64,000 bases of DNA from contig NZ_QOHG01000003.1 of the NCBI RefSeq assembly GCF_003319125.1, positions 62,001 through 126,000 on the forward strand, read 5' to 3'. Shown here piece by piece: positions 24,916 through 46,387 of the stretch. The notes under the pieces are model-generated. The model was not told where the DNA came from. It did no database searches and saw nothing but the letters and a program-made list of their open reading frames with translations. Both the position numbers and the translations under genes were made by a program. The stretch comes from Blastococcus sp. TF02A-26 (lineage in GTDB: Bacteria > Actinomycetota > Actinomycetes > Mycobacteriales > Geodermatophilaceae). The number at the start of each line of letters is the position of its first letter. Position 1 is the stretch's first letter.

Positions 24916-25248
24916 ATGGCGAGCGTGCGTCGCGAGGCCAGTGTCCTGCACCTGGACCTCGACGCCTTCTTCGCCGCGGTCGAGCAGCGTGACAAGCCCT
25001 CGCTGCGCGGCCGGCCGGTCGTCGTCGGCGGGGTGGGCGGCCGCGGCGTCGTCGCCACCGCCTCCTACGAGGCCCGCGCCTACGGGGCCCGGTCGGCGAT
25101 GTCGACCGCGGAGGCCCGGCGGCGCTGCCCGTCCGGCACGGCCTTCCTCGGTGGCCGGTTCGCCGCCTACCGGGCCACCTCCGACGTCGTGATGGGGCTG
25201 CTGCGGGAGCTGTCGCCGCTGGTGGAGCCGGTGAGCATTTCTGTCTGA
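24916..25248 (+). pseudogene. dinB: 5' fragment of chromosomal dinB (DNA polymerase IV), cut by the mobile element
   Basis: Starts MASVRREAS at the ATG at 24916 and carries the first catalytic Asp in HLDLDAFFAAVEQ and the finger region YEARAYGARSAMS. Polymerase homology runs to LSPLVEPVSI at about 25238; then element-linked sequence adds two residues and a TGA. The catalytic DE pair that should follow is 20 kb away at 45350. About 107 native residues remain. No SOS (LexA) box is visible upstream. The gene cannot give an active polymerase. Confidence 0.95.
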
Positions 25249-25251
25249 ACT

Positions 25252-25306
25252 AGGCGTGTCGTTGTACCGACCTGTCGCACCCCCCTGCCAGGGTGTCGAT
25301 CATGGT
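25252..25306 (+). repeat. Left terminal inverted repeat
   Basis: Begins AGGCGTGTCGTTGTACCGAC and ends GATCATGGT. Aligned with the reverse complement of 45272-45326 it differs at four positions (repeat positions 17, 27, 43, 45). The first recombinase gene starts inside it. Confidence 0.97.
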
Positions 25307-26948
25307 CGAGTGGCGGCTGGTGTGGGTGTCGCCCCAACGGACCCCTGCGCCTGTTGAGGCGCTGTGGGACGAGGGGCAGTTCGAGCGCGCCCGCGCCCTG
25401 GCCCAACTCGACCGTGAGCCCTACGCCGTGTTCGTTCCGCCCAGCGGTGTCCCTGACCAGCGCCTGCTGCGCTACACGACGGACCACTTGGCCAACTACG
25501 CGGTCGACACTCAGCGGACCTACGCGACTGAGATCAGGGTGTGGCTGAACTTTCTCGTCGACACCCGAGGGGAGACCGACTGGTGCAGGGCGACGAGCGA
25601 CGACGTGCGCAACTTCGAGTTCTTCCGGCGGCGTGACCGCCGTCGGTTGGAGACCGAGGACAGTCGCGGCCGCAAGAAGACACTCATCACCGGGTCGTCG
25701 TGGGTCAAGGTGCTGGCAGCGGTGTCATCGCTGTACCGGTGGGCAGTCAGCGACAAGTTGATCACCGCGAGCCCTGTAGTGATGAGCAGCGGGGGACCGC
25801 GTCGAGGCTCGCGCCACGACAGGCCGTCAACACCTCGGGCGGAGCAAGCACCGTCGAACGCGAGGAAGTCGAACGTCCGGTGGTTAACCCGCCGCGCGGT
25901 CGAGCGGTGGCGCCAGATCGGCTTCGAGGACTACGGGGCGAACGGACTGCCTCGTGGCGTCGAGCGTGTACGCACGCAGGCTCGCAACGTCGCCTTCGTC
26001 AACCTGCTGTACGGCACTGGGATGCGCCGCAAGGAGGGCGGCGCGCTGTTGACCCTGGAGATTCCGGCCGACGAGGGCACCCGCAGCATGGTCACCGGAT
26101 GGGTGCCCGAGGCCCTAGGGAAGGGCGGCAAGGGGCGCTGGTTCTACCTCGAACGGCGCTACGTACGGGGACTGCACGCCTACATTCGCTTCCAGCGGCA
26201 GCAGGCCGTACAGCGAGCCCAGGCGCAGGGTCGCTATGAGCGCGTTGAGGACCGCCTGCTGCTGGTGGCGGTGCATGGCTCCGGGAAGGGGACCGAGGTC
26301 ACCACGCTCGACCCTCGGGAGCCAACGGCAGAGCCGGTACGGCAGCGGCTGGACGACCTCTCAGCCGCCGATCGCATGCGCCTCTACCGAGAAGTATCCA
26401 CGGAGCGCGGCGCGGTGCTGGAGCCCCTGTGGCTGTGGCTGAAGGACGACGGCACACCGCTCCCCTACCGCGAGTGGGACGGCATCTTCCGGGCCGCGAA
26501 CGAGCGATTGAAGCGGGAAGGCGTTGCCCTCTTCGCGATGCCGCACATGCTGCGCCACTCCTACGCCCTACACATGCTCATCGCCGCTCAGCGCGCGTAC
26601 CTGATCGACAGCGGCCTCGACGCCGAGGAGCGCCGTCGGTATCAGCGACTGTTCGGCAACGTGTGGGAGTTGGTCCGCGACCTGCTGGGCCACGCCGACG
26701 TCACAACGACCAGGAACTGGTACCTGGAGCCAGTACGGGGTCTCCAGATGGAGTGGCTGATGGACATGATCCATCAGCCCGACGGAGAGAACAGCCCGGT
26801 TCGTGACGTCAAGGCCCTCGAAACGCTCGTCCGCGAGACAGCCAAGCCGGACGCGGATGCGTCTCCCGCCGACGACATCGATGCCTTCGAAACTCTGGTC
26901 AGCCAGCGGTCCCACCGGGTCCTAGACGTGGCCGGGGATGAAGCCTGA
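25293..26948 (+). CDS. tnpA: Tyrosine recombinase 1 of the trio (TnpA-like)
   Basis: 551 residues from a GTG at 25293, or ATG at 25302, both inside the left inverted repeat. An N-terminal SAM-like DNA-binding domain (about 55-165; AVDTQRTYATEIRVWLNF) is followed by the catalytic domain (about 190-500): Arg in YGTGMRRKEGGAL, HxxR in MPHMLRHSYALH, LLGHADVTTTRNWY with the nucleophile Tyr. All catalytic residues are present. It overlaps the next recombinase by 1 bp. With its two partners it should cut and join the element ends. Confidence 0.93.
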   Translation: MSIMVEWRLVWVSPQRTPAPVEALWDEGQFERARALAQLDREPYAVFVPPSGVPDQRLLRYTTDHLANYAVDTQRTYATEIRVWLNFLVDTRGETDWCRATSDDVRNFEFFRRRDRRRLETEDSRGRKKTLITGSSWVKVLAAVSSLYRWAVSDKLITASPVVMSSGGPRRGSRHDRPSTPRAEQAPSNARKSNVRWLTRRAVERWRQIGFEDYGANGLPRGVERVRTQARNVAFVNLLYGTGMRRKEGGALLTLEIPADEGTRSMVTGWVPEALGKGGKGRWFYLERRYVRGLHAYIRFQRQQAVQRAQAQGRYERVEDRLLLVAVHGSGKGTEVTTLDPREPTAEPVRQRLDDLSAADRMRLYREVSTERGAVLEPLWLWLKDDGTPLPYREWDGIFRAANERLKREGVALFAMPHMLRHSYALHMLIAAQRAYLIDSGLDAEERRRYQRLFGNVWELVRDLLGHADVTTTRNWYLEPVRGLQMEWLMDMIHQPDGENSPVRDVKALETLVRETAKPDADASPADDIDAFETLVSQRSHRVLDVAGDEA

Positions 26949-45093: not shown

Positions 45094-45271
45094 CCTGCCT
45101 CCCACCCTGTTGCTTCATCCACCCTGCCCGAAGCGGGATGCTCTCTGACATGCACCGCCTCGTGACCGGAGAAGGCCGGTCGCCCTCGCCGAGCAGTGTC
45201 GTAGAGGTGCATCGGCAGGTCACTGAGGACTGCCGCATCACCGGCGCCAACGCGCTCAGCGGTGTCCGCAG

Positions 45272-45326
45272 ACCATGATCGGCGCCCTGGCAGGGGGGTT
45301 CGACAGGTCAGTACAACGACACGCCT
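45272..45326 (-). repeat. Right terminal inverted repeat
   Basis: Inverse copy of 25252-25306. Read outward on the plus strand it supplies an ATG (45275) in frame with the 3' half of dinB. Confidence 0.97.
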
Positions 45327-46387
45327 TAAACACCCGACAGTTCTCGATCGACGAGGCCTACGTCGACCTGGCCGCCGCGCCCGGGCTCGACCTGTCGGTG
45401 GACGGTGTGACGGAACTGGCCCGGGGGCTCAAGGAGCGGATCGCGGCCGCGACGGGCGGGGTGACCGGCTCGGTGGGCATCGGCAGCTCCAAGCTGATGG
45501 CGAAGCTCGGGTCGGAGCTGGACAAGCCCGACGGCCTGGTGGTCGTCCCCCCGGGCACCGAGCTGGAGCTGCTGCACCCCCTGCCGGTGACCACCCTCGG
45601 CGGGGTCGGGCCGGCCACCGCCGAACGGCTGCACGCGGTCGGGGTCCGGACCGTCGGCGACCTCGCCGCCCGCTCGCTGTCGGACCTGGTCGCCCTGGCC
45701 GGCCGGGCCCACGGCGCGGGGTTGTACCAGCTGGCCCGCGCCGAGGACGACCGCGCCGTCGTGGCCGACCGGGAGACCAAGTCGGTCTCGGCGGAGGAGA
45801 CCTTCGAGCGCGACCTGACCGACCGGGCGGTGCTGGGCCGGGAGATCGACGCGATGGCCGGCCGGGTCGGTGACCGGCTGCGCAAGGCGGCGTACTCCGG
45901 CCGGACCGTGACGCTCAAGCTGCGTCGCTACGACTTCACCACGCTGACCCGCTCGCAGACGCTGCCCCAGCCCACCGACGACCCGCGGCTGATCGCCGGC
46001 ATCGCGCAGCGGCTGCTCGACGAAGCCGGGACGGCCGGCGGACTGCGGCTGCTCGGGGTCGGCGTCTCCGGGCTCTCGCTGTACGCGCAGGGCGACCTGT
46101 TCGCGCTGGGCACCGATCCCGCCGGGGCCACCCCCGAGGAGGCCGCTCCCGTCGTCGTCGCCCCCGAGCCGGAGCTGCCCGCCGAGCGCCGCTGGTGGCC
46201 CGGGCAGGACGTCAGGCACGACGAGCTCGGCGCCGGCTGGGTCTGGGGCCGCGGGATCGGCCGGGTGACGGTGCGCTTCGAGGGGCCCCTGACCGCGCCG
46301 GGGCCGGTGCGCACCTTCCTCGCCGACGACCCGGCGCTGCACCCGGCCGATCCACCGGACTGGCGTCCGGAGACGATGTCGGCATGA
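45275..46387 (+). pseudogene. dinB: 3' fragment of chromosomal dinB downstream of the element
   Basis: Native polymerase sequence resumes at about 45347 with SIDEAYVDLAA, which includes the catalytic Asp-Glu, and continues through thumb, little finger and C-terminal extension to 46387. The open frame reaches back into the right inverted repeat, where an ATG at 45275 would give a protein with 23-24 foreign residues. It lacks the first catalytic Asp and fingers, so cannot polymerise alone. The C-terminal DNA-binding part could still be made. Confidence 0.95.

Follow-up and report, generated by a model that had tools for sequence, protein, structure and literature searches.

A mobile element that splits the catalytic motif of dinB in Blastococcus carries a complete, diverged dinB

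Results

The element lies between two codon pairs of the dinB catalytic motif

We analyzed a stretch of 64,000 nucleotides (hereafter, the window) from Blastococcus sp. TF02A-26 (contig NZ_QOHG01000003.1, positions 62,001 to 126,000), which is part of contig C40 of genome G000 (4.68 Mb, 53 contigs). The window contains a mobile element inserted into dinB, the gene for DNA polymerase IV (pol IV), and this element carries a complete dinB of its own (Table 1). The host gene follows its normal frame from the ATG at 24916 on the forward strand to LVEPVSI and meets a stop codon two residues into the element; the remainder picks up as SIDEAYVDL at about 45343–45349 and runs to the stop at 46387. The acidic motifs LDLDA and SIDE of DinB are catalytic, and the C-terminal host part is without residues 1–106, including the first catalytic Asp motif. 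A preliminary description of this DNA had placed the cut between the Ser-Ile and the Asp-Glu of SIDE, which the reading frames of both parts bear out. Its size of about 20 kb for the element also holds, while the limits it gave, 24916 and 46387, are the outer ends of the split dinB and not those of the element, which spans 25239–45342. Within the window, the GC content of the element is 0.691 vs 0.751 to the left of the insert and 0.732 to the right.

A search of the genome contigs with the recombinase TnpA found two further loci with a 100% identical protein, in Blastococcus sp. TF02-09 (G012) and Blastococcus sp. TF02A-35 (G015), so that the element is present at one site in three genomes of two genera. 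The three-locus alignment has 21 variable columns between 25240 and 45345 (~20.1 kb), and both host flanks are sharply diverged. The insertion codons and junctions are identical in the three genomes, and an assembly artefact was ruled out, since the same junctions occur in three separate assemblies. A near-identical element at the same codons on diverged flanks indicates that it moved between genera. On plasmids, all TnpA relatives were below 60% identity, and no match was found in viral contigs. No relaxase or conjugation gene, the mark of integrative and conjugative or integrative and mobilizable elements, was seen among the element proteins included in the general family scans, some open reading frames (ORFs) lying outside them.

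The left and right core hexamers are GAGCAT and CTCGAT in the window, GTCGAT at both ends in G012, and GTCCAT at both ends in G015. Each is a synonymous version of the Val-Ser-Ile codons found in intact dinB genes, and as every core fits these codons, the visible moves are from dinB to dinB. A 6-bp footprint is known for Tn554-related elements and for the strand-biased circularizing integrative elements (SE) (PMC10214605), and by analogy with it the unequal hexamers of the window suggest that one of them was brought by the element from another dinB; the three copies do not assign a polarity to this footprint. The dinB reading frame is not restored across attL or attR, as it would be by rebuilding of the target via attP.

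An ATG at 45275, in the right terminal repeat of the element, opens a 370-aa frame (45275–46387, forward strand) through the 3′ part of the host dinB. This frame is open in all three copies of the element, and a truncated DinB might be produced from it.

The inner dinB is an old and constrained gene

The inner gene encodes a full pol IV, with a score of 581 bits against NCBIfam model NF002882 (cut-off 389), matches to Pfam IMS and IMS_C, and both LDLDA and SIDEA present. The earlier claim that the element ends with a full-length, diverged dinB keeping the C-terminal extension thus stands for this 450-aa protein, which is 67–78% identical to the two host parts.

To place this gene, a tree (LG+G4+F) was built from 82 DinBs, namely 28 outgroup sequences, 50 family genes not split by the element (intact or frameshifted; a subset of the 99 element-free dinB genomes counted below), the three split host genes, and the inner one. 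The inner DinB was sister to the 53 Geodermatophilaceae DinBs, the family clade having supports of 97.4/99 without it and 81.1/92 with it. The split host genes grouped with their own relatives, that of the window with G109 and G110 (99.7/100), that of G012 with G001 (99.2/100), and that of G015 with G011 and G018 (97.8/100). A recent duplication of the host gene, which the preliminary description had named as a possible objection, is ruled out by this topology, the inner DinB lying outside the family clade. Its distance to the common ancestor is 0.57 vs a family mean of 0.68. Compared with seven family dinB genes, the inner gene showed synonymous differences (pS) of 0.53–0.58 and nonsynonymous differences (pN) of 0.19–0.20, and of the 175 columns with a conservation of 95% or more in the 81 other DinBs, its product keeps 166. 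Tree position, pS and pN, and conserved columns together indicate an old, constrained, and foreign gene, neither a decaying copy nor a recent duplicate. At residue 109, all 53 family DinBs have Y and the inner DinB has V.

No donor of the inner dinB was found; identities outside the family reached at most 61% in the class sample, and the order sample gave one match at 65%, in G553. This G553 gene (L123, G553:C6:43545–44879) was the only close match outside the family in the order sample and has ordinary-looking surroundings. Two genomes of the same family as G553 (G506 and G518) had no match at the threshold used for that sample (E ≤ 1e-85), and the G553 gene was perhaps acquired by horizontal transfer. 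On plasmids, dinB of the inner type is rare (79 of 72,556 records at E ≤ 1e-60, best identity 45%). A simple scan found no LexA-type box upstream of the host or the inner dinB. In view of the V at residue 109, we also considered whether the inner gene had been recoded against self-insertion and dropped the idea, since its six core bases are those of an ordinary dinB target.

Element-free relatives have a single dinB of the inner type

The inner DinB was searched in 112 genomes of the family and the matches were counted by hand, the count being complete for strong matches, down to about E = 1e-75. One full-length dinB of the inner type (64–73% identical) was present in 96 genomes. In G013, which has no dinB element, the frame of the single dinB is apparently shifted at about residue 290, at some distance from the SIDE codons (L058, ~8293 of G013:C15); this would be a sequencing error or a natural loss of this pol IV. 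Two genomes (G035 and G096) have one dinB each, cut by a contig end, and the three with the element have the inner gene and the split host gene. The other ten (G034 and G067–G075), six of which are less than 90% complete, showed no dinB of the inner type among the matches listed. The preliminary description had asked whether uninterrupted relatives hold a single dinB; among the matches listed, none of the 99 family genomes that have dinB but no element showed a second one of the inner type. Most family genomes had one further, weaker match, which among those listed was a pol IV paralogue (42–46%).

The inner DinB was also searched in two wider samples. Of the 394 genomes of the class sample, 116 had a match at E ≤ 1e-100, and G000 alone had a second, the split gene; of the 397 of the order sample, 177 had one at E ≤ 1e-85, and two matches were seen only in G000, G012, and G015. 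Strongly diverged split dinB genes could drop below both thresholds. No element at the SIDE codons without dinB was found in the family genomes; all three SIDE insertions carry the gene, although they are near-identical copies of one element.

Distant relatives split pstA and a GmrSD_C/HNH gene

A distant relative in G494, a genome of the same order, has a TnpA 37% identical to that of the window and cuts pstA after IVIPTA. The G494 TnpA was searched in 297 genomes of its genus; 27 of them gave matches at E ≤ 1e-80, for which 37 places were listed, and the flanks of the best 15 of these places were inspected. Six of the 15 (G494, G892, G997, G1029, G972, and G965) cut pstA at one point, and each of these six has, downstream of the recombinases, a further complete pstA, which codes for 299 aa and shares 53–62% identity with the host type. 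For five of them, the two parts of the host gene are found on a single contig with the second copy between them, and the elements measure 38.9, 49.2, 49.9, 51.6, and 28.8 kb. In G494, contig C5 goes from the right end of the element into a different gene and the 3′ part of the host pstA is on contig C1, so that the right junction was pieced together from two contigs, the end of C1 lying in the right end of the element. The gene after a 77-bp right-end repeat (G494:C5:193966–194042 and C1:62473–62551; L125, L144) is pstA in one of the two contigs and helicase/methylase-like in the other, so that this right end occurs twice.

Between G892 and G997, the inner pstA has a pS of 0.24 and a pN of 0.01, which argues for constraint. 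Both tnpA and the inner pstA are identical among the elements of G997, G1029, and G972, while the host pstA genes of these genomes differ at a pS of 0.22–0.41; this suggests that one element reached the same site several times independently. Among the elements that cut pstA, TnpA identity goes down to 66%. The inner pstA copies belong to pst operons with arsenic-type genes next to them, in a block common to the G494, G892, and G965 elements; one of its products is an LMWPc-family, arsenate-reductase-like protein by Pfam, and the other names are our reading.

A gene with a GmrSD_C/HNH product is interrupted, between CDTR and NDIL, by another element of G494, on contig C15; the 5′ part of the host gene comes after the right end of the element and the 3′ part before the left end. 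This insert is 14.7 kb long, its ends show weak similarity as inverted repeats, and its last gene is a complete GmrSD_C/HNH relative of 236 aa from the ATG. The inner protein is 70% identical to the split one over the C part and 55% over the N part, and its frame opens about 30 bp inside the right junction. The pattern, first proposed for dinB alone, is thus also seen at pstA and at the GmrSD_C/HNH gene in distant relatives, which makes the claim wider than it was.

The recombinase operon is closer in layout to those of SE and GInt elements than to Tn554

The left end of the element bears an operon with two tyrosine recombinases, one ordinary and one long, both with catalytic-type residues, which is the mark of the Tn554/SE/GInt group. 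The R, H, R, H, and Y of TnpA are each kept in 11 of 11 aligned sequences, and the R, R, H, and Y of the long recombinase in 11 of 12, its usual HxxR box being RxxR. Eight genomes of the class, G000 among them, have the first three genes of the operon in the same order elsewhere, at ten places in all and with 26–39% identity. A single-sequence structure model of the 599-aa protein between the recombinases gave no usable fold (predicted local distance difference test score 40).

Tn554 proper is marked by tnpA, tnpB, and tnpC only, whereas here a conserved 599-aa gene lies between the recombinases, also in the relatives; such a gene is present in SE (where it is Tfp) and GInt elements and absent from Tn554 (PMC10214605, in the passages cited). 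The ability of the 6-bp core to differ between the ends, seen in the window, is an SE mark. The four-gene order of SE and GInt elements fits as well, the second and the small gene being placed by position alone and the 104-aa ORF being extra. The layout is closer to SE/GInt than to Tn554, as set against the published descriptions of SE and GInt elements. We therefore describe the element as a site-specific tyrosine-recombinase element of the Tn554/SE/GInt group with one conserved gene more than Tn554; the earlier label "Tn554-like" is right at the level of this wider group and wrong for Tn554 proper.

The window genome also holds, at G000:C48:110100–118498 (L020, L021), two adjacent near-identical copies, about 7 kb apart, of another element with the recombinase trio, whose TnpA is 35% identical.

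Cargo genes

The cargo of the dinB element is, as judged from family matches, mainly metal resistance (Table 1). Between the recombinase operon and the metal cargo lie two genes on the reverse strand (31498–32511 and 32513–33691) for proteins of 337 and 392 aa with no significant Pfam family. A 160-aa protein (42824–43306, reverse strand; CTCWRA...GKSHPAAW) has a look-alike, spotted by eye, beside a distant element in G057 (L019, upstream of tnpA), and is possibly a recurrent cargo gene.

Table 1 Features of the split dinB locus (positions in the window).
Feature	Position	Strand	Evidence or remark
Host dinB, 5′ part	24916–25238	+	Ends EPVSI, cut within SIDE codons; 78% identical to inner DinB residues 2–106
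Left 6-bp core GAGCAT	25233–25238		Variable host/donor hexamer; GTCGAT in G012, GTCCAT in G015
Mobile element, 20,104 bp	25239–45342		Three-copy alignment, inverted repeats, GC 0.691
Left copy of 56-bp subterminal inverted repeat	25252–25307	+	93% complementary to 45271–45326
tnpA/intA-like tyrosine recombinase, 551 aa	25293–26948	+	Catalytic-type R245 H418 R421 H467 Y477; Phage_integrase 5.5e-10
599-aa protein, position of tfp/ginC	26948–28747	+	Syntenic homologues 26–36%; no Pfam match
tnpB/intB-like long tyrosine recombinase, 619 aa	28744–30603	+	R270, R417, H439, Y448; Phage_integrase only E 0.21
Small ORF within recombinase operon, 104 aa	30603–30917	+	No family above cut-off
174-aa protein, tnpC/srap/ginD-like by position	30914–31438	+	Homologous stretch at operon end in four relatives, 36–49%
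ArsR-family regulator	33787–34167	+	HTH_5 3.4e-14
Cation efflux protein	34134–34940	+	Cation_efflux 4.5e-15
Copper-type P-type ATPase	36580–39234	+	TIGR01511 5.5e-177
CopM-like DUF305 protein	39835–40458	+	Family match
Second DUF305 protein	40505–41170	-	Family match
Cys-rich DUF326 protein	41258–41752	-	DUF326 1.7e-15
Second ArsR-family regulator	41799–42230	+	Family match
Complete second (inner) dinB, 450 aa, with C-terminal extension	43741–45093	-	ATG at 45093; orientation opposite to host dinB
Right copy of subterminal inverted repeat	45271–45326	-	Contains ATG 45275 in frame with host dinB 3′ part
Right 6-bp core CTCGAT	45343–45348		Differs from left core GAGCAT in window genome
Host dinB, 3′ part	45349–46387	+	Asp-Glu codons to stop; 67% identical to inner DinB residues 101–447

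Discussion

From the sequences compared here, it is probable that the element breaks a conserved gene and supplies a whole, diverged replacement for it, and that the same arrangement holds for pstA and the GmrSD_C/HNH gene in its relatives. The attachment site is the hexamer that covers the Val-Ser-Ile codons in the dinB SIDE motif, next to the equally conserved Asp-Glu codons. Insertion breaks dinB, probably for good: for the related SE elements, it is reported that no empty site is left behind (PMC10214605), which by analogy would make the break permanent, and as only the 6-bp core is exchanged, the junction cannot rebuild the gene. If no empty site is left, as in SE, and the core is unable to restore dinB, this may be why a whole copy is carried. 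Once expressed, the independently evolving dinB of the element would complement the loss and take over pol IV function, which would lower the cost of insertion and tie this function, and with it the host, to keeping the element. We regard as about evenly balanced the broader proposal of an actinobacterial class of elements with at least three targets (dinB, pstA, and GmrSD_C/HNH), each using a codon-conserved site in an important gene, breaking it irreversibly and bringing its own anciently diverged version, so that loss of the element would be punished.

Several observations weigh against this interpretation. The dinB evidence comes from one element lineage, sampled three times. Each of its three hosts also has a pol IV paralogue (44–45%), and together with the frameshifted dinB of the element-free G013 this means that losing dinB may cost little. 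The inner DinB deviates at nine strongly conserved positions, including F15M and Q21M. The main weakness of the pstA case is that pst could be ordinary cargo in its own right. Furthermore, when the left flank of other insertions (~1.8 kb for G893, G860, and G814) was compared with the downstream DNA, no convincing homologue of the flank was found in 36.1–36.5 kb for these three, where matches were short and scattered; the element lies in an enoyl-CoA-hydratase-like gene in G893 and in an oxidoreductase-like gene in G860 (names read from translations), and that of G814 is on a contig of 252,568 bp. Neither was a flank homologue found downstream in G319 (26.7 kb), the second G000:C48 copy (17.3 kb), G057 (12.7 kb), G106 (11.9 kb), G401 (7.6 kb), or G299 (6.7 kb), and the match of the first G000:C48 copy was the neighboring copy of the same element. 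As a positive control, the same test detected dinB when run on the window. It covered the places named here, without G387 and most of the 37 listed places beyond these; the stretches compared may be shorter than the elements, and some insertions may break no gene. A copy of the target gene is thus no general feature of this group.

A different benefit can be imagined, in which the element gains by removing the host version and installing its own with altered properties, such as a pol IV variant for metal or oxidative stress or a phosphate transporter excluding arsenate, the breaking of the host gene being part of the advantage. This explanation would suit the copper/metal island that the dinB element forms, the neighborhood of arsenic-type genes in which the pst copies occur, and the changes of the inner DinB at positions invariant or nearly so in 81 relatives; most changes in the inner DinB, however, look like ordinary divergence, and the GmrSD_C/HNH case has no obvious stress link. 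We hold it to be unlikely, if the most serious competitor. Somewhat less credit still goes to coincidence, that is, to Y-family polymerases, pst operons, and nucleases being accessory genes that share a family with the split gene by chance. Some relatives do lack a target homologue and a pst operon suits an arsenic island, but dinB of the inner type is rare on plasmids, and a rough estimate of about 20 cargo genes against about 5,000 host genes gives a match in less than 1% of lineages. The match recurs for three unrelated targets, and for pstA in six of six insertions with TnpA identities down to 66%; recurrence in three unrelated genes strains coincidence.

It is very improbable that the inner copy is a scar, picked up by recombination at the target locus of an earlier host and kept with no selected role. 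The copy is indeed of the target gene itself, and late-gene capture beside the insertion site has been proposed for helper-embedded phage-inducible chromosomal islands (PICIs) (PMC10111431). Against this, the inner pstA is strongly constrained, the inner dinB is intact and in the orientation opposite to the host gene, and the divergence between inner copies and host genes is far greater than a recent capture would show. Supply of a whole replacement by the element remains our preferred explanation, and the preliminary interpretation is supported in part: neither an insertion at the SIDE codons lacking dinB nor a recent origin of the inner gene by duplication came to light, its wording needs changing at "Tn554-like", and a working inner gene, a cost of losing dinB, and dependence of the host on the element are predictions.

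Several known systems resemble this one in part. SE elements (SE-6283/Tn6283; PMC10214605) share the series of recombinase, second protein, long recombinase, and small protein, the operon at one end, target specificity, a variable 6-bp core, and imperfect terminal inverted repeats; they differ, as compared by description, in being reported mainly from Gammaproteobacteria and in that target replacement is absent from the passages cited. GInt elements (ginABCD; PMC5385486) likewise have a four-gene module with three recombinase-type proteins, site-specific insertion, and large cargo islands, but their targets are probably not completely inactivated (insertion being intergenic, at the 3′ end, or at the 5′ end with an outward promoter), and the cited description includes no whole spare target gene. 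Tn554 and the Tn554-related transposons that occur in Actinobacteria, including Mycobacterium (PMC3414803), combine an ordinary with a long tyrosine recombinase, to which a TnpC-like partner is often added; Tn554 is without the middle gene, and target replacement goes unmentioned for these transposons in the cited passages. Integrases that rebuild their target via attP (icd, tRNA genes; PMC10111431) also offset the damage of their own insertion, but there a recombinant gene is restored at the junction, whereas in the present case the host copy remains disrupted and the element brings a second, entire gene. The closest published idea that we came across is that helper-embedded PICIs may hold in reserve an intact version of the prophage gene that they disrupt (PMC10111431); these differ in being phage satellites that occasionally capture phage late genes, no chromosomal housekeeping gene being involved in the cited account. 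A search of published papers by titles and abstract openings found, among the records listed, no report of a whole replacement for a chromosomal target gene.

Many site-specific elements spare their host, either because they insert between genes or at gene ends or because the target is rebuilt where element and host meet. If the interpretation given here is true, carrying a whole replacement gene would free an element to target the most conserved bases of an important gene and so widen its host range, and a housekeeping function would become an anchor that selects for retention of the element. A pol IV or a phosphate transporter annotated as belonging to the host may then belong to a mobile element.

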